39,318 nucleotides of DNA. Origin: a virus. A program made the position numbers and the translations under genes. This document shows, piece after piece, positions 4,177 through 36,818 of the stretch. The stretch covers positions 1 to 39,318 of IMG/VR virus record IMGVR_UViG_3300033148_002171. One strand, given 5' to 3'. How positions within the stretch are numbered: the first letter of the stretch is position 1; each line of letters starts with the position of its first letter. The notes beneath the pieces were generated by a model, which saw only the letters and a program-made list of their open reading frames with translations, was not told the origin of the DNA and searched no databases.

Positions 4177-4500
4177 ATGGCTTACAAATATACAAGTTTT
4201 TATGATTATGTGGATAATGATGGGGTTGAGCATGGCGGCCTGTACGCGTTTGATGATAAGGAGGCAGACGAGCTTGCTGATAAGGAGAAACTGAAATACT
4301 GCAAGTTGGTTAAGCGAGAAGTTAAAAGCCCTGCACAGGTGATGAGAGAAGGCAGGGAGAGGAATCGCGCCAAAGGCCTTGTCCCATTCAATGATTGGGT
4401 AGACGAAAGAGACAAGCCAGAAGCTAAGAAGGAATTCGCTAAACTTAAAATCGAATTGGCAGACAAAAGGCTTAATGCTAAGAGGGGGATATTAAAGTGA
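4177..4500 (+). CDS. Hypothetical charged protein
   Basis: A 107-residue protein starting 3 bp after the YopX stop. The N-terminal part ([23 protein letters not shown]) is followed by a strongly charged helical region rich in Lys, Glu and Arg that is likely a coiled coil or long helix. Its TGA overlaps the GTG start of the next gene. No family is recognised. Confidence 0.7.
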
Positions 4501-4682
4501 CAGACGGAACTCATGATGATGAGGCCTCAAATAAAAAGCTATTCCATTGCTCATTTTGCGGAAAACCTGATCGTGATGTGGAGCAAATGATAGCTGGCCC
4601 TGATGTTTTTATATGCAATGTTTGCGTAGAAATATGCAGAGATATTATTGGCGAATCTAGAATGAGAAACAAAAATGACTAA
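4497..4682 (+). CDS. Stand-alone ClpX-type zinc finger protein
   Basis: A 61-residue protein consisting of the N-terminal C4 zinc-binding domain of Clp[21 protein letters not shown] then [14 protein letters not shown]. The four Cys are 18, 21, 40 and 43. In ClpX this domain dimerises and binds adaptors and substrates such as SspB and lambda O. A free copy could alter ClpXP substrate choice, or be the phage's own adaptor; that is inference. The GTG start overlaps the previous stop (GTGA). The AAA+ part is absent and there is no sign that it was ever attached. Confidence 0.85.
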
Positions 4683-5876: not shown

Positions 5877-5921
5877 AGCAAAAACCCCTTAATCGTAGAC
5901 CGGCAAAGTCTATAAGGGGTT
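5877..5921 (-). terminator. Intrinsic terminator, leftward
   Basis: AACCCCTTA (5883-5891) pairs with TAAGGGGTT (5913-5921), with inner stem TAGAC/GTCTA and loop CGGCAAA. On the minus strand TTTTTGCTTT follows, giving the T tract. The minus strand shares TCTACGAT and AAGGGG with the plus-strand terminator at 667-714. Confidence 0.65.
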
Positions 5922-6372
5922 CCGGTACAGCAGATGGAAGAATCATATCTACATCGACATATTATGTCAACCCTCCTGTTGTAACCAATCCAAAACTTGC
6001 AGTCACGCATCACTATAGATACGGGTGCCTTATTTTGTCACCGCAGTGCAGAAAAGCGAAATAGAACGATATTAATCAAGCATTTTGAGCCGATGCCCTG
6101 AATCGATACCAGTTCGACTATCAGGATAAACGTTTTAAATGGTGATCTTGTCAATAGAATAATTGACGATCAGGGACGACATACCCTACATATACCGTGA
6201 AACCTGTTTACGATAAATTGATTAATATGATTAACGGCTAAAGATAATAATACTTTAGAACTAAATACATACTCTGCCTCTAGATCACCTTAAGGCTCAT
6301 TAGACTTCTTATTGCCTGAATATATCTTATCATACAAATAACTAAAATAAATTAACTTATTTACATCGAATA

Positions 6373-6434
6373 GCTTGATTAACTAAAATAGATATACTAT
6401 TATAAGTACATAGACATTAACAAACGCAACGGAG
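6373..6434 (+). repeat. Promoter repeat, copy 1
   Basis: 62 bp repeated at 9301-9362 with about five substitutions. It covers the -35 and -10 boxes and the leader down to CGGAG, the ribosome binding site. The cargo genes behind each copy are unrelated. Confidence 0.9.
6375..6403 (+). promoter_or_regulatory. Rightward sigma70-type promoter, cassette 1
   Basis: TTGATT (6375-6380), a 17-nt spacer and TATTAT (6398-6403). Transcription would start about 40 nt before the gene at 6444. The minus strand also contains TATAAT, so weak leftward activity is possible. Confidence 0.65.
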
Positions 6435-6443
6435 ATCTAGGTA

Positions 6444-6590
6444 ATGACAAACACAAAATTAGTAGCAAGAATCAGAGCAAATGAATTTGAAGCGAAAGAA
6501 GTTAACGGTAAATTTTACGCTTGGGTACCTCGCGCTCATGAATGGCAAAGAGTTGCAAAAACTAAAATATTTAAAGCAGATGTTAAATGA
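6444..6590 (+). CDS. Small hypothetical protein, cassette 1 cargo
   Basis: A 48-residue basic protein (MTNTKLVARIRANEFEAKEV; the second half NGKFYAWVPRAHEWQRVAKT is rich in Trp and Arg). It begins 10 nt after CGGAG behind the cassette promoter. Its TGA overlaps the ATG of the next gene. No family is recognised. Confidence 0.6.
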   Translation: MTNTKLVARIRANEFEAKEVNGKFYAWVPRAHEWQRVAKTKIFKADVK

Positions 6591-6739
6591 AAAAGTATAG
6601 CTGGGGCGTTGACGGTTTAGGCCGGCAACATATTTGTTTAAATAATGACGTCAGAATTTTGTTATGTGTGCTGCCTAATGAATCACTTTGGGTATGTATG
6701 GATTTACTCAGCACATATGGCAATCATATTTTTGAATAA
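6587..6739 (+). CDS. Small hypothetical protein, cassette 1 cargo
   Basis: A 50-residue protein coupled by ATGA to the previous gene. It starts MKKYSWGVDGLGRQHICLNN and has a hydrophobic middle (VRILLCVLPNESLWVCMDLL). Three Cys are present without a clear metal-site spacing. No function is recognised. Its stop is 50 bp before the interrupted tRNA-like gene. Confidence 0.55.
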   Translation: MKKYSWGVDGLGRQHICLNNDVRILLCVLPNESLWVCMDLLSTYGNHIFE

Positions 6740-6789
6740 AATTTAACCGTTGCAAATAATGCAATAGTTGATTAATTATTACATTTTAT

Positions 6790-6910
6790 TTGGTAGTAGC
6801 TAAAAGGTAAGGCAGCAGGGGCTTTGAAAATGAGTCGTAGACATTAGTTATACTGTGAGAGCAATGTAGATAATTGCCGTTTGCTGGTTCGAATCCAGCC
6901 TACCAAACCA
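6790..6910 (+). tRNA. tRNA-like gene interrupted before the anticodon arm
   Basis: The acceptor TTGGTAG (6790-6796) pairs perfectly with CTACCAA (6900-6906), followed by A and an encoded CCA (6908-6910). The D arm GCTAAAAGGTAAGGC keeps A14, G18G19 and A21. The T arm GCTGG-TTCGAAT-CCAGC is perfect. A perfect hairpin GCAAT-GTAGATA-ATTGC (6861-6877) lies exactly 5 nt before the T stem, the right place for an anticodon arm with a normal variable loop. About 46 nt (6815-6860) separate it from position 26. The loop would give anticodon AGA with U33, but T at 37 is unusual. Total length is 121 nt instead of about 76. The isotype is uncertain. Confidence 0.6.
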
Positions 6911-6929
6911 TTAATTAAAGGATTATATA

Positions 6930-7223
6930 ATGAATATTGATGCGGCTGTGAAAAGAGCCTGTAAGGAGGATACGATGCTTGGTGCCTTTGCTTTTATATG
7001 CCTTTGGGAATTCGAAAGAGCGCGAAAAACAGTCAAGCCAAATGAGCCTTATGAGACTTGTTTTAAGCATTGCTTGAAATTAGTAAAAGAGAAATATGAA
7101 GGCTCTTTATATGATTGTGATTATTGCGGTGATACGAGGTTCGACCCAGAAAATTTTACTTCATCAGGTCAATTGCCATGCCCTAGTTGTAAGGATATTA
7201 GCATCGAAAAAAACAGCGAGTAA
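6930..7223 (+). CDS. Hypothetical protein with C-terminal zinc ribbon
   Basis: A 97-residue protein with a helical N-terminal half (VKRACKEDTMLGAFAFICLW) and a C-terminal CDYCGDTRFDPENF...CPSCKD module: two CxxC pairs about 20 residues apart, as in zinc ribbons. It starts 20 bp after the tRNA-like gene with AAAGGA as RBS. It is cargo of cassette 1. Confidence 0.65.
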   Translation: MNIDAAVKRACKEDTMLGAFAFICLWEFERARKTVKPNEPYETCFKHCLKLVKEKYEGSLYDCDYCGDTRFDPENFTSSGQLPCPSCKDISIEKNSE

Positions 7224-7228
7224 ATTGA

Positions 7229-7392
7229 ATGAAACCATCTGAAAAATGCAAACTAGCAGGACTTAAAAGCTTAAAAGAATTATCTGAAATAAGCGGCGAG
7301 TCAGTCCAGACATTAAACAACTGGCACAAGAATAAGCCTATGCTGTTTGAGCTGACTCTAAAGGGCGCAGTAGTTAAGCGCATGGAAAGGAT
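7229..7392 (+). repeat. HTH gene repeat, copy 1
   Basis: About 160 bp matching 10168-10331 with roughly ten substitutions, several silent. Both copies stand about 860 bp downstream of a copy of the promoter repeat. Confidence 0.9.
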
Positions 7393-7411
7393 TAATCATG
7401 GGGACTTTTAA
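7229..7411 (+). CDS. Small phage HTH protein, copy 1
   Basis: A 60-residue protein: residues 5-50 read CKLAGLKSLKELSEISGES then VQTLNNWHKNKPMLFELTL, a helix-turn-helix seen in many small phage proteins (LKSLKELSE / TLNNWxxNKP pattern). It is almost identical in DNA and protein to the gene at 10168-10344. Only the ends differ (RINHGDF here). It closes cassette 1 and overlaps the start of the probable replication gene at 7398. It probably regulates transcription or replication; the target is unknown. Confidence 0.8.
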   Translation: MKPSEKCKLAGLKSLKELSEISGESVQTLNNWHKNKPMLFELTLKGAVVKRMERINHGDF

Positions 7412-7949
7412 CGCAGAAGAAGCCTTTGATTTATTTTGGGATGAGTACGACAAAGCATTAACGGGCGGATTGTCATCAGGTAAAGGCGTTAGAAAGAAAG
7501 CGTTAACATCGTTCAAACGTAAAGTTACATCAGCTAAGAAGGCTGGACTAGTTCTAAGTAAGTTCAGAATGCAGCGTGATGAATGGCTTAGGAATAAGAA
7601 AGGCGATGAATGGCAGGCTAATTTTCCACACGTGTCGACATATCTTAACCAAGAGCGATGGGAAACCGAGGTGGATGCACCGCAAACACAGCAGGCAAGG
7701 CGCTCAGAGCTTCAAGAGTGCAGCGAACCAAATTGCAGGGACAAAGTGGCGGGGCCTGCTTTTGATGAGTGTGAGAGACATTTAAACCGCCCTGCAAGGG
7801 AAAAGGAAAAAGCCGAGCTAATCGACTGGATGAAAGAAAATAAACTGATGAAGCGTAAAAGCGAAACAAACGACCAATGGCGGCAAAGAATGAGAGAAAG
7901 CGCAAGGCAAGGATTCAGGGAAATGCTCAATAAATCCATAGTTAAATAG
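7398..7949 (+). CDS. Probable phage replication accessory protein
   Basis: A 183-residue protein. The N-terminal half fits the pattern common in the C-terminal part of phage replication initiator or helicase-loader proteins: FDLFWDEYDK, then GKGVRKKALTSFKRK, then FPHVSTYLNQERWE. A CxxxxC...CxxH cluster (ECSEPNCRDK, then FDECERHL, residues about 106-128) could bind zinc. The C-terminal third is a charged helix. It would recruit host replication proteins to the phage origin. It is the only replication candidate in the window. GGAAAGGA precedes the ATG. Confidence 0.5.
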   Translation: MGTFNAEEAFDLFWDEYDKALTGGLSSGKGVRKKALTSFKRKVTSAKKAGLVLSKFRMQRDEWLRNKKGDEWQANFPHVSTYLNQERWETEVDAPQTQQARRSELQECSEPNCRDKVAGPAFDECERHLNRPAREKEKAELIDWMKENKLMKRKSETNDQWRQRMRESARQGFREMLNKSIVK

Positions 7950-7991
7950 CGGTCGATTAAAGACATATTAGGATAACCAAGGAGAATAGTA

Positions 7992-8303
7992 ATGACGTTT
8001 TATATAAAAAAACCAGTAAAGATTGAAGCAATGAAATTTGAATATAGCAAACAGGGCATCTCAAGTTTAAAGGAGTTTTGTGGCGAATCATTGGGGCATA
8101 CATCAAAGCAGAGGCATATGGGGAGCAAGGGTGAGGCGGAAATACTAACGCTTGAAGATGGTCATGATAGCAGGGTTAAGCATATCGCCACTGATGGTGA
8201 TTATATTATCAAGGGTGTTAATGGTAAGTTTTACCCATGCAAGCCAGATATTTTCAAAAAGACATATTACACAGAGCTTCAGTACGCAGAAGCCAAAGGC
8301 TAA
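7992..8303 (+). CDS. Conserved phage protein of unknown function
   Basis: A 103-residue protein with the widely seen phage pattern KKPVKIEAMKFEY at the start and GDYIIKGVNGKFYPCKPDIF followed by KKTYY near the end (residues about 69-93). This family occurs in many tailed phages of Gram-negative hosts and has no known function. Its RBS is AAGGAGA, 8 nt from the ATG. Confidence 0.75.
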   Translation: MTFYIKKPVKIEAMKFEYSKQGISSLKEFCGESLGHTSKQRHMGSKGEAEILTLEDGHDSRVKHIATDGDYIIKGVNGKFYPCKPDIFKKTYYTELQYAEAKG

Positions 8304-8318
8304 CCAAAGGGGTAAGAG

Positions 8319-8561
8319 ATGACTACGTGTAAGCAGTGTAAGTTTTTTAAAGATCGAGAAGATGACAGTAAACATGGCAATTGTTTCGCATACCCTCCAG
8401 ATTCAATGGAAGCAAGAAGGTACAAATCATTTTTCACTGAGCAAGTTGACGTTGTGTCTGTTCGCGTGAGTGTTTATTCTACTGATATAGCTTGCACTTC
8501 ATATTCTGACAGGGTTCAGGAAATCACTGTGACTGCTGCTGACTTTAAACCAGAGCGCTAA
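8319..8561 (+). CDS. Small Cys-rich phage protein
   Basis: An 80-residue protein with the pattern CKQCKFFKD...GNCFAYPPDS...DIACTSYSD: four Cys in a CxxC-x(n)-C-x(n)-C arrangement, as in small phage proteins that probably bind a metal or an Fe-S cluster. It sits in the early operon with GGGGTAAGAG upstream. Confidence 0.65.
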   Translation: MTTCKQCKFFKDREDDSKHGNCFAYPPDSMEARRYKSFFTEQVDVVSVRVSVYSTDIACTSYSDRVQEITVTAADFKPER

Positions 8562-8587
8562 CCAATAACACTAGAGGAGAGATAAGG

Positions 8588-8806
8588 ATGAAAAGCCCAG
8601 AACCAACAATAAATCAAATGTTAGTTTATGCTGGGATTAAAACAATATCTGGATTTACTGATAATAGATTCGGCCATAAGTTTAAAGTTTTGGAGCATAA
8701 CGGAATTAGTGTTCTCAGGCCGAGATTAGGATTTTATGATGACGTAAGGGAAGTTTGCAAGGCAGCGTTTGGAGTTGAACTTATAGAGGCAGTTAAGGAG
8801 GATTGA
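8588..8806 (+). CDS. Small hypothetical protein
   Basis: A 72-residue protein (MKSPEPTINQMLVYAGIKTI; then a basic patch, VLRPRLGFYDD, and a helix VREVCKAAFGVELIE). Its end VKED is repeated by the next gene, whose RBS AAGGAGG lies inside this gene's last codons. No family is recognised. Confidence 0.6.
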   Translation: MKSPEPTINQMLVYAGIKTISGFTDNRFGHKFKVLEHNGISVLRPRLGFYDDVREVCKAAFGVELIEAVKED

Positions 8807-8808
8807 TT

Positions 8809-9015
8809 ATGGAGATTGACGGTAGAAGCTCAGACAACATATGTAATTGGGGGAGATCATTTGACGGGCATATTAACATGTCTTGCGCCGATGAATCCAA
8901 ACAGCGAGCCAATGGCAACTTTAAAGGGAAGGAAAATGGCGCTAAATGGGAATTTATATATTGTCCTTATTGTGGTGGATTAATAAATATGCAAGAGCAG
9001 GTTAAGGAGGATTAG
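8809..9015 (+). CDS. Small zinc-ribbon-like protein
   Basis: A 68-residue protein. It ends with FIYCPYCGGLINMQEQ, a CPYCG knuckle, and has earlier Cys in NICNWGRS and NMSCADE that could complete a zinc site. The ATG at 8809 follows AAGGAGG with good spacing and is preferred over a TTG at 8803. It overlaps no neighbour and is followed after 2 bp by the ACP-like gene. Confidence 0.6.
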   Translation: MEIDGRSSDNICNWGRSFDGHINMSCADESKQRANGNFKGKENGAKWEFIYCPYCGGLINMQEQVKED

Positions 9016-9017
9016 CA

Positions 9018-9278
9018 ATGTCAAAACCAATTGACCAAGAAGACGCAATAAAAAAGATAATATCTGACTACACCCACAGAACAGTAATTAGAATGGATCA
9101 CAACCTTAGCAACGATTTGAACCTAAAGCCAAAGCAGGTTATTGATATTCTACTCATAATCGATATTGAGTTTGGCGTAGGTCTTGGTGATGACTTAAAT
9201 ACGCATATAAAAACTGTCCAAGATTTATGCAACGGCGTAAATAAATTAACAAAGTATAAGAATAATACTTTACATTGA
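9018..9278 (+). CDS. Acyl-carrier-protein-like protein without the attachment Ser
   Basis: An 86-residue protein resembling the four-helix acyl carrier protein fold: DLNLKPKQVIDILLIIDIEF (residues 33-52) aligns with the helix II region of ACP, and IKTVQDLCNGV matches the TVxD(L) end motif. In ACP the phosphopantetheine arm is on the Ser of DSL; here Pro38 stands there, so it cannot be charged in the normal way. It may bind ACP partners as a mimic or be an exapted fold. The assignment is by pattern only. Confidence 0.5.
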   Translation: MSKPIDQEDAIKKIISDYTHRTVIRMDHNLSNDLNLKPKQVIDILLIIDIEFGVGLGDDLNTHIKTVQDLCNGVNKLTKYKNNTLH

Positions 9279-9300
9279 ATTCATTTATTTATCCGAAAGT

Positions 9301-9362
9301 GCTTGATTATCTAAAATAGATACACTATTATAAGTACATAGACATTAACAAACACACCGGAG
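9301..9362 (+). repeat. Promoter repeat, copy 2
   Basis: Near-identical to 6373-6434, 2928 bp away. It holds promoter and RBS for the second cassette. Confidence 0.9.
9303..9331 (+). promoter_or_regulatory. Rightward sigma70-type promoter, cassette 2
   Basis: TTGATT (9303-9308), a 17-nt spacer and TATTAT (9326-9331), as in the copy at 6375. It drives the gene at 9372 and those behind it. Confidence 0.65.
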
Positions 9363-9371
9363 AGCAAAACA

Positions 9372-9548
9372 ATGAAATTTTCAAAAGGCCAAAAATTAGT
9401 AATCGGAACTACAGAATACACAGTTGTTGTTGATAGAAAATCTCCAGAGTCATATATCGGCGAGCAAGTAATTTGCACTTTTACCGACAAGCAGGGATGC
9501 GAAGATTATTACACTTTCAACAAGGCTGAGCTAATCGGCCTAATTTAA
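9372..9548 (+). CDS. Small hypothetical protein, cassette 2 cargo
   Basis: A 58-residue protein, probably a small beta barrel: alternating strands KLVIGTTEYTVVVD, QVICTFTDKQG and YYTFNKAEL. It starts 10 nt behind CCGGAG of the cassette promoter, in the place taken by an unrelated gene (6444) in cassette 1. Its TAA overlaps the next ATG (TAATG). Confidence 0.65.
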   Translation: MKFSKGQKLVIGTTEYTVVVDRKSPESYIGEQVICTFTDKQGCEDYYTFNKAELIGLI

Positions 9549-9712
9549 TGATAACGGTTGAATTTACGAGGGACATAACACTCCCTCGCTTTACCATGAA
9601 GAAGGGCGACACATGGAAAAAACGGCCTGAAAATATCACAGACAAAGGCTTTAAGTGTGGATGTGGATTTGTCCATTCTGACCATTACAGGATAGTTAAA
9701 AATGACGAATGA
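9548..9712 (+). CDS. Small hypothetical protein with CGC-H motif
   Basis: A 54-residue protein. MITVEFTRDITLPRF leads to KKGDTWKKRPE and then KCGCGFVHSDHYRIV, a Cys/His cluster that could bind one metal. It is coupled to the gene before it (TAATG) and overlaps the next by 11 bp. Confidence 0.6.
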   Translation: MITVEFTRDITLPRFTMKKGDTWKKRPENITDKGFKCGCGFVHSDHYRIVKNDE

Positions 9713-9944
9713 AATTGATGCGGCAACAATGGATAGGCTTATAGTATGCGCAGAAAACCCAATTGTTGGAGGTGATATTCGGCGCGCTTTAAATTGGATA
9801 GATACGCTAGAGATTCAGGTAGAGTCTATGCGGATTGTGCTGGCATCAGTGGCGGAAAAGGCTGGCTTATCTGACAAGGAAGTGACAGACCTATTGTATG
9901 ATGTTGGAGATAAGGTAATAAAAGCACGAAGGGGGCAGGAATGA
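9702..9944 (+). CDS. Hypothetical helical protein
   Basis: An 80-residue all-helical protein (DAATMDRLIVCAENP; LNWIDTLEIQVESMRIVLAS; LSDKEVTDLLYDVGDKVIKA). It overlaps the next gene by ATGA. No family is recognised. It is cargo of cassette 2. Confidence 0.6.
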   Translation: MTNEIDAATMDRLIVCAENPIVGGDIRRALNWIDTLEIQVESMRIVLASVAEKAGLSDKEVTDLLYDVGDKVIKARRGQE

Positions 9945-10171
9945 GCTCGTTCGATATATGGCTGGACAATTACAAAATAGGATACAACGGCAAGGATTCC
10001 GAGATGAATAAAAAAGGAATGGAAGCCGCCCACCATGCAGGGTTTTCAAAGGCACGAGACCTTCGAGAAAATGCCTTCAATGTATTGATGACTGAGAACA
10101 GAGAGCTCAAAGACACGCTTATAGATGTGCTTGAGTCGGTGAATTCGGTTAGGGCGACAATAGAAAAATGA
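9941..10171 (+). CDS. Hypothetical helical protein
   Basis: A 76-residue protein with an N-terminal FDIWLDNYKIGYNGKD and a long helix from about residue 27 to the end (KARDLRENAFNVLMTENREL and following) that may form a coiled coil. It is coupled by ATGA both to the gene before it and to the HTH copy after it. Confidence 0.6.
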   Translation: MSSFDIWLDNYKIGYNGKDSEMNKKGMEAAHHAGFSKARDLRENAFNVLMTENRELKDTLIDVLESVNSVRATIEK

Positions 10172-10331
10172 AACCAAGTGAAAAATGCAAACTAGCAGGA
10201 CTTAAAAGCTTAAAAGAATTATCTGAGATAAGCGGTGAATCAGTCCAGACATTAAACAACTGGCACAAGAACAAGCCTATGCTGTTTGAGCTGACTTTGA
10301 AGGGCGCAGTAGTTAAGCGTATGGAGAAAAT
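10168..10331 (+). repeat. HTH gene repeat, copy 2
   Basis: Matches 7229-7392. The distance between HTH copies (2939 bp) is almost the same as that between promoter copies (2928 bp). Confidence 0.9.
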
Positions 10332-10344
10332 ACCAAAGGAGTGA
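10168..10344 (+). CDS. Small phage HTH protein, copy 2
   Basis: A 58-residue near-copy of the protein encoded at 7229-7411. The core CKLAGLKSLKELSEISGES and VQTLNNWHKNKP are identical; the C-terminus differs (EKIPKE). Most base changes are silent, which suggests both copies are under selection. It closes cassette 2. As a pair the two could form hetero- or homodimers at the same site. Confidence 0.8.
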   Translation: MKPSEKCKLAGLKSLKELSEISGESVQTLNNWHKNKPMLFELTLKGAVVKRMEKIPKE

Positions 10345-35603: not shown

Positions 35604-36818
35604 CTAACCCTTGATATTAATCAAAGGCCGTACATGAGCTACAACATCAACTAAATCTTTTTGTAATCGCATTACATCGTGAATGTCTTTGTAAGCTAGT
35701 GGCGATTCATCTAAGGTGCTTTCTTCAACCAAGGCAGTTACATCCTTCATTGTTGTTTTAAAATCATCTAAGTTTAGTTCTCGCATTGCCTGTTTGCGAC
35801 CCATCACACGGCCAGCACCATGCGAACTTGAATAAAGGGATTCTGGGTTTCCCTTTCCGCAAACGATGAATGAACCATCTTTCATGTTTCCAGGTATAAC
35901 GCCCATCATTCCTTTTTCTGCGTGGGTAGCACCTTTGCGGTGAATCCAAGCCCCGTCACGTTCGGTTGCATGATTGTGGTTGCGGTTAATTAGCTCAGAG
36001 AAATCTAGCTCATAACAAGAAATATCAAGAGCCTCAGTAATTGCATTAACTACACGAGCCATCATTTCTTTACGGTTTGCTAAAGCAAAGTCTAAGCACC
36101 AGTTCAAATCCTGAATATAATCTTTGCCTTTTTGAGAACTAACATCAAAACCATAATGCCCTTCTTTTGGTCGCAGCTTACCAACCTTCTTAGCGACATA
36201 TTGCGCTTTCAGTCGGTCGTAGTTATCAGGGTTATGCTTAAGTAATTTTTCGCTCTTAGCATCAAACTCTTCTTCAATCTTTTTCGGGTCACTCGATGCA
36301 ACAGTCATGTAATGTGCAGCAATACCGTGACCAACGCCACGACTACCTGAATGAATCACAACCCAAATATTATCTTCCTCATCATGGCCGACCTCAATAA
36401 AATGATTGCCGCCACCCAAAGACCCTAAAGCTTTACCATACTTTTTGATCTCAGCAATCTCCTTACCTTTGTCTGTTAGACCATCAAGATTGTATTCCAT
36501 GGCTTTTTGGTTAGCGTTAAAACCAACAGGGATATATTTGTAAATTAGGTCAAAAATATCTTTCCGGTTAGCCTCAAGCTCATCACGAGAAATACCATCT
36601 AAGCGCAAGGCACACATCCCGCAACCAATGTCATAACCAACCCACGCAGGTAGTACCACGCCCTTTGTGGCAACAACTGCTCCAATTGGCAATGAATAAC
36701 CAGCGTGCGCATCTGGCATCAAAGCGCCGTAGGTTACAAAAGGCTGCTCCATTGCGCTTTCAAATTGTTCAATTGCTGCATCTTCCAAAACTTCAGCGTA
36801 AATCTTTGTGTTTTTCAT
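35604..36818 (-). CDS. rtcB: RtcB-type RNA ligase
   Basis: A 404-residue, full-length member of the RtcB family (E. coli RtcB is of similar size). RtcB joins RNA ends carrying 2',3'-cyclic or 3'-phosphate to 5'-OH ends, using GTP and Mn2+. Metal and active-site residues are present: DIGCGM (Asp63, Cys66), GGGNHF (Asn138, His139), VIHSGSRG (His156), RNHNHATE (His281/283), and the guanylylated His333 in SSSHGAGR. In a phage it could repair tRNAs cut by host anticodon nucleases or join interrupted tRNAs. No archease gene is nearby. It is preceded by a 72-bp inverted repeat. Confidence 0.93.
   Translation of the reverse strand: MKNTKIYAEVLEDAAIEQFESAMEQPFVTYGALMPDAHAGYSLPIGAVVATKGVVLPAWVGYDIGCGMCALRLDGISRDELEANRKDIFDLIYKYIPVGFNANQKAMEYNLDGLTDKGKEIAEIKKYGKALGSLGGGNHFIEVGHDEEDNIWVVIHSGSRGVGHGIAAHYMTVASSDPKKIEEEFDAKSEKLLKHNPDNYDRLKAQYVAKKVGKLRPKEGHYGFDVSSQKGKDYIQDLNWCLDFALANRKEMMARVVNAITEALDISCYELDFSELINRNHNHATERDGAWIHRKGATHAEKGMMGVIPGNMKDGSFIVCGKGNPESLYSSSHGAGRVMGRKQAMRELNLDDFKTTMKDVTALVEESTLDESPLAYKDIHDVMRLQKDLVDVVAHVRPLINIKG

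Follow-up and report, generated by a model that had tools for sequence, protein, structure and literature searches.

The closest described parallel to the locus studied here is the acr–aca operon of phages, in which, as outlined in sections of the published accounts, a fixed aca gene accompanies shuffled anti-CRISPR (acr) genes and inverted repeats lie in the core promoter (PMC7648647, PMC9410906); according to similar sections, the same acr genes also occur with different aca genes (PMC9410906, PMC9765179). Anti-defence genes of archaeal viruses have likewise been found through regulatory sequence, a conserved promoter marking variable early genes in the portion of that account considered here (PMC11065993). 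We analysed a viral sequence of 39,318 bases, the entire IMG/VR virus record IMGVR_UViG_3300033148_002171 (hereafter the window), which contains two cassettes, each consisting of a predicted promoter, a set of small cargo genes and a final gene for a helix-turn-helix (HTH) protein. We consider it likely that these cassettes are aca-type, self-repressed and exchangeable accessory operons, probably of anti-defence function, present twice in this marine phage. They resemble acr–aca operons in having, clearly in relatives and imperfectly in the window, an inverted repeat in the core promoter, and in having small variable genes and a last gene encoding an HTH protein of about 60 amino acids, as far as those operons are characterised in the relevant parts of PMC9410906 and PMC7648647, and in carrying AcrIF11 as cargo in one relative. 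They differ from them in that the HTH protein has no match to a named Aca, the comparison being by description, and the window cargos match no known Acr or defence-related family, in that the recorded phages are those of marine gammaproteobacteria, and in that one genome holds two cassettes and a tRNA-like RNA is among the cargo. Unlike the archaeal case, to the extent that it is covered in PMC11065993, the system is bacterial and its cargo is bracketed by the promoter and the HTH gene.

The ends of the two cassettes are clearly homologous. The promoter blocks (6350-6435 and 9278-9363) are 85% identical over 86 bp, with four mismatches within the 62-bp promoter repeat that a first-pass annotation of the sequence had noticed (6373-6434 and 9301-9362), and the HTH genes starting at 7229 and 10168 are 94% identical over 159 nt, the alignment beginning one base 5' of each ATG. 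In both cassettes, homology on the left stops in the ribosome-binding region just 5' of the first cargo gene; on the right, it begins at the HTH start codon. The intervening ~0.8 kb gave no convincing similarity between the cassettes in blastn and six-frame blastp searches, where the best pieces were an 18-nt blastn match (E = 0.02) linking the starts of the open reading frames (ORFs) at 6930 and 9702 and blastp matches of 8-12 amino acids with E of at least 0.10. The first-pass annotation had described a duplicated promoter repeat and HTH gene, promoter-to-HTH spacings of 856 and 867 bp and the ORFs of both cassettes, and had called the cargo DNA unrelated, a view that clear homology between the two cargo sets would have contradicted; all of this stands. 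It had also stressed the nearly equal cargo lengths, which are a coincidence: the promoter-to-HTH distance in relatives ranges from ~0.2 to 0.87 kb, and we reject equal length as a design feature.

The two HTH copies differ by eight synonymous codon changes in 53 codons and by no amino acid, giving a synonymous divergence (dS) of ~0.30, while the promoter blocks have diverged by 0.17 substitutions per site. Zero amino-acid changes among 53 residues at this dS point to selection on the HTH protein, which we count in favour of an accessory operon under its control. As judged from the sequences, both ends are compatible with a single duplication; cargos with a common origin would be expected to remain recognisable at such divergence, and these numbers therefore suggest that at least one cargo has been replaced. 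Gene conversion may also have acted on the two HTH copies.

The decisive support for a slot came from nine closely related Nahant phages, picked from 46 records mainly for their differing genome lengths; their host is given as V. breoganii in eight cases and as 'uncharacterized' in one. Between near-identical ends they carry four unrelated cargo alleles, of which A is found in four phages, B in three, and C and D in one each. The promoter blocks, terminator-like hairpin included, are 89-100% identical between cargo types. Across all 27 pairs with different cargo, identity over 135 nt of the HTH gene is 91.1-97.8%, whereas the 60 bp directly upstream of that gene are 17-42% identical. Homology ends near the cargo start and returns at the HTH start codon, so exchange is visible at near-base resolution, the cargo changing between its own start codon and that of the regulator while the controls stay constant. 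Homologous recombination at the ends can fairly be taken to do the swapping. If any cargo can function between this promoter and HTH gene, an exchangeable slot extends from the cargo start codon to the HTH start codon, much as the first-pass annotation had suggested, with the correction that a functional counterpart of the frame, the acr–aca operon, is already known. Slots can also be stacked within one genome: Vibrio phage 1.085 (L171) carries at 431-2160 a tandem pair of promoter-cargo-HTH cassettes whose HTH proteins have diverged in the recognition helix, the upstream cassette consisting of a promoter block of 78% identity, a 70-amino-acid cargo and a diverged HTH gene (hidden Markov model, HMM, E = 1.1e-12) and being followed by the main cassette. 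The stacking seen in the window is therefore not unique to it.

The same frame with different cargo was found widely in the search of phage genomes that had been proposed as a check on the slot idea. We reduced 76 HMM matches to 58 distinct HTH loci, including one (L022_5066) that looks like a terminase small subunit, and defined cargo as an ORF of at least 30 amino acids ending at the HTH start. Such an ORF was present in 48 of the 58 loci, overlapping the HTH start by exactly 4 nt in 26 of the 48; by this rule, the other ten had none. At E ≤ 1e-3, the 48 cargos formed 44 blastp clusters, a count to be read with the limits of clustering short proteins, which may miss distant cargo relationships. 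One locus (L039) has relatives of two window genes on either side of its HTH gene, that of 9548-9712 upstream and that of 7992-8303 downstream.

A link to anti-CRISPRs comes from a relative (L014) whose cargo is AcrIF11 (NF052490; 130.7 bits against a cut-off of 50). This gene ends four bases before the HTH gene, and the promoter has two CAAA/TTTG-type repeats. Vibrio phage VaK and a Providencia phage also have AcrIF11 relatives, and the small proteins encoded after these are different ones, unrelated to the HTH family, which fits the published pairing of acr genes with different aca genes. The VaK locus (L156, 1501-2126) is organised similarly, its AcrIF11-like gene sharing a 4-nt overlap with a gene for 65 amino acids and its promoter spacer holding the dyad GTCCC-GATTA-GGGAC, but unlike in the window, the 65-amino-acid partner is unrelated to the HTH family.

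The HTH protein matched phrog_409, a 'transcriptional regulator' (E = 1.3e-5), and AlphaFold2, run with 26 sequences, predicted a confident four-helix HTH protein (predicted local distance difference test, pLDDT, 94.8) with helices at residues 3-35. The copies of 58 and 60 amino acids agree with the single HTH protein of ~60-65 amino acids by which Aca proteins are recognised by size. Described features of Aca5 (WP_039494319.1, 60 amino acids) are similar in length, in the reported HTH at residues 3-36, in the association with AcrIF11 and in the distant homologs reported in Vibrionales; a difference is that the matches listed include no enterobacterial-phage relative of the window HTH protein other than one from Plesiomonas, found for its relative L144. 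The protein had no NCBIfam match, named Aca families such as Aca5 having been compared by description only, and no paper among those listed in literature searches names the family, with the 36 new Aca families of AcaFinder lying outside the comparison. Comparison of the predicted fold returned nameless viral proteins (best 50% identity) and, in the PDB, weak matches only, headed in Z score by ribosomal L20-type chains; a PDB sequence search gave no credible relative. Among viral contigs, one scan found 13 loci with HTH relatives and another 44, the sets overlapping, and 35 phage records with relatives belong to phages of Vibrio, Pseudoalteromonas, Alteromonas, Marinomonas and Oceanospirillum. 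Relatives also occur in five bacterial contigs, of which four are metagenome-assembled. Only four of 369 gammaproteobacterial genomes gave a match, two of these being genomes of query loci, and the family thus looks mainly phage-borne.

The −35/−10 core pattern occurs at two places in the whole window, both at the cassettes, and in none of 100 shuffles. The promoter block is also found upstream of the HTH gene in five relatives (L003, L004, L005, L006 and L018). A promoter pattern made from five relatives matched exactly those five contigs in IMG/VR and nothing else, although by construction it retrieves its own source contigs, and a 16-mer scan with the promoter leader gave 49 matches, mostly short and covering the leader only. 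A pattern-independent promoter scan turned up perfect dyads, ATACTAAAAATGTTTTAGTAT in L007 and ACTAAAACAGTTTTAGT in L006, that occupy the whole 17-bp spacer. The corresponding perfect-dyad promoter pattern matched nine stretches in IMG/VR, of which four had the HTH gene within 300 bp downstream; two of these are known contigs, and the other two (L144 and L147) represent a single sequence, which was not among the matches listed by the HTH protein scans. The remaining five stretches lack an HTH gene of this family, although in L143/L145 and L142 the pattern precedes nearby HTH-like reading frames outside it.

We then considered how far the candidate operator follows the regulator. We trained a promoter model on seven sites and applied it to 49 held-out loci, with 2,798 control windows for comparison. 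At p < 0.01 it recognised 8 of the 12 held-out loci whose HTH identity reached 60% or more and none of the 37 with a lower identity; the identities are a rough ungapped measure and are incorrect for a few HTH proteins that are extended at the N-terminus. Hence the operator dyad appears to track the HTH protein in relatives, a second point that we count in favour of autoregulated operons. Distant HTH proteins go with other dyads at the same promoter position, such as TCAAACAGTTTGA in L029 and TGAAA-CTA-TTTCA in phage 1.132. A core common to the family was recognised in 10 of 56 loci and 1 of 2,645 controls, with a pattern made after most matches were seen. Within the window spacer two overlapping dyad registers are possible; one of them, TATCTA-AAA-TAGATA, is perfect in cassette 2 and has one mismatch in cassette 1.

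We propose that each cassette would be expressed from a strong promoter and comprise one to four small accessory genes with the gene for the 58- to 60-amino-acid HTH protein last. Translated with the cargo, the HTH protein would bind the dyad between −35 and −10 and shut the operon down after an early burst. The frame would have been duplicated once and at least one cargo replaced thereafter, and the cargos would probably act against host defences. If this is right, the promoter/HTH frame gives a means of searching marine phages for anti-defence genes; in these phages we found 44 unrelated cargo families in 48 slots, nearly all without a known family. Several observations weigh against it. The window cargos match no known Acr or defence-related family in Pfam, PHROG, NCBIfam and PADLOC, and among 53 scanned cargos only one matches a known Acr, others matching dUTPase and PAPS-reductase/DUF3440 families; the slot is therefore not reserved for anti-CRISPRs. 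The fold match to Aca10 (7xi5) is weak (Z 4.2, 50 residues, 3.0 Å) and ranks below unrelated ribosomal proteins. As to the operator, close HTH proteins may share promoters through descent alone, and a recognisable site is present by either model in only 22 of 56 loci, 7 of the 22 having been used for training. The window dyads themselves are imperfect, and on their own they do not differ significantly from shuffled sequence (p = 0.35 and 0.10).

Metabolic cargos, such as those matching dUTPase and PAPS reductase, would suit ordinary early-region mosaicism, in which common regulatory parts meet random accessory cargos with no special exchange or anti-defence role. Phage early regions are often full of small uncharacterised genes, and the cassettes lie close to replication genes. 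We nevertheless regard this as unlikely, as independent groups share the same two swap boundaries, 44 cargo families share one HTH family and AcrIF11 was found in the slot. Still less probable is that the HTH protein is an activator or a CII- or Cro-like regulator of replication or lysogeny, its two copies raising dosage and the cargo differences being incidental. While the phrog_409 match and the similarity of the downstream ORF 7398-7949 to replication initiation proteins would suit such a role, the dyad of relatives fills the −35/−10 spacer, which is the position of a repressor, and the window has only two such promoters, both at cassettes. The gene order, the coupling and the small HTH autorepressor further recall HigBA-type operons, so the cargo might be a toxin followed, in reverse order, by an HTH antitoxin repressing its own promoter. 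Identical HTH residues follow the unrelated window cargos, however, and near-identical HTH proteins follow the four Vibrio-phage cargos, so that the HTH protein cannot be the dedicated partner of one toxin; moreover, none of 53 cargos matched a toxin family at E ≤ 0.001 in NCBIfam and Pfam. We reject HigBA-type pairs on these grounds and hold any toxin-antitoxin arrangement to be very improbable. Self-repressed accessory operons remain our preferred explanation of the two cassettes, whose features are listed in Table 1.

Table 1. Features of the two cassettes in the window
Feature	Position	Strand	Evidence
Promoter block, cassette 1	6350..6435	+	85% identity with 9278-9363 over 86 bp
Predicted core promoter 1: −35 TTGATT, −10 TATTAT, putative operator in the 17-bp spacer 6381-6397	6375..6403	+	Pattern conserved in relatives
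Cargo ORF, 48 amino acids, cassette 1	6444..6590	+	No Pfam, PHROG, NCBIfam or PADLOC match listed
Cargo ORF, 50 amino acids, cassette 1	6587..6739	+	Sub-cut-off NCBIfam match only
tRNA-like RNA with expanded anticodon region, then CCA, cassette 1	6790..6907	+	Rfam RF00005, 40.3 bits
Cargo ORF, 97 amino acids, CxxC...CxxC, zinc-ribbon-like, cassette 1	6930..7223	+	Sequence
HTH protein copy 1, 60 amino acids, proposed autorepressor	7229..7411	+	phrog_409, E = 1.3e-5; AlphaFold2 pLDDT 94.8
Promoter block, cassette 2	9278..9363	+	Homology to cassette 1 block
Predicted core promoter 2: −35 TTGATT, −10 TATTAT, putative operator in the 17-bp spacer 9309-9325	9303..9331	+	Pattern match
Cargo ORF, 58 amino acids, cassette 2	9372..9548	+	No family match
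Cargo ORF, 54 amino acids, cassette 2	9548..9712	+	46% relative upstream of HTH gene in L039
Cargo ORF, 80 amino acids, cassette 2	9702..9944	+	Open reading frame
Cargo ORF, 76 amino acids, cassette 2; stop overlaps HTH start by 4 nt (ATGA)	9941..10171	+	Open reading frame
HTH protein copy 2, 58 amino acids	10168..10344	+	53 residues identical to copy 1

The tRNA-like gene in cassette 1 scores above the Rfam gathering cut-off of 29 bits. Its 7-bp acceptor stem is perfect, its D and T arms are good and CCA follows, but ~45 extra bases lie around the anticodon arm. Default ARAGORN finds no tRNA at 6790-6907 because the anticodon region is expanded; with introns allowed, the program reports the gene by way of a 23-nt insert and a poor stem, and the anticodon arm is not canonical. 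The RNA folds no better than shuffles (z = −0.17). A second tRNA-like gene at 508-588 on the minus strand, likewise scoring 40.3 bits in Rfam, again combines a perfect acceptor stem with good D and T arms, but its anticodon arm is abnormal. Exact-pattern scans for relatives of both genes found none, and an Rfam scan of 13 related loci returned nothing. The two may be decaying tRNAs or modified RNAs. Phage tRNAs have been proposed to evade anticodon nucleases, as stated in a part of PMC10264068, and it is conceivable, if doubtful, that the RNAs from 6790-6907, expressed under aca-type control, and from 508-588 are anti-defence decoys, possibly acting with RtcB, so that the slot would carry both RNA and protein counter-defence. 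An RtcB-type RNA ligase is encoded at 35604-36818 on the minus strand (PHROG 1075, E = 2e-114), in the same 39-kb phage as the two odd tRNA-like genes.

Searches with the individual cargos yielded little. The zinc-ribbon-like protein had no phage relative by tblastn and its AlphaFold2 model (pLDDT 44.8) was unusable; cargo 9548-9712 had no match among 50,697 phage records, and the two cargos following it had no phage match.

Elsewhere the window encodes a terminase, a portal, a NinG-like protein and a major head protein with phiV10 among its relatives. The closest phages by terminase (L111 and L115, 82% identity) had no blastn similarity to the window early region and so were uninformative about a slot that is empty or holds other cargo. 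The ORF starting at 7398, located 3' of the cassette 1 HTH gene, overlaps that gene, and reading may go on downstream of it. Among the neighbouring plus-strand genes, 4497-4682 encodes 61 amino acids that we take to resemble a stand-alone ClpX zinc-binding domain, and the 86-amino-acid product of 9018-9278 has what we presume to be an acyl-carrier-protein-like look, but without the serine motif. A transposase-family protein (PHROG 506) is encoded at 1385-2482 on the plus strand, its CxxC motifs and C-terminus presumably being TnpB/OrfB-like. Upstream of cassette 1, positions 5884-5922 form a strong hairpin (−16 kcal/mol) with no T run.

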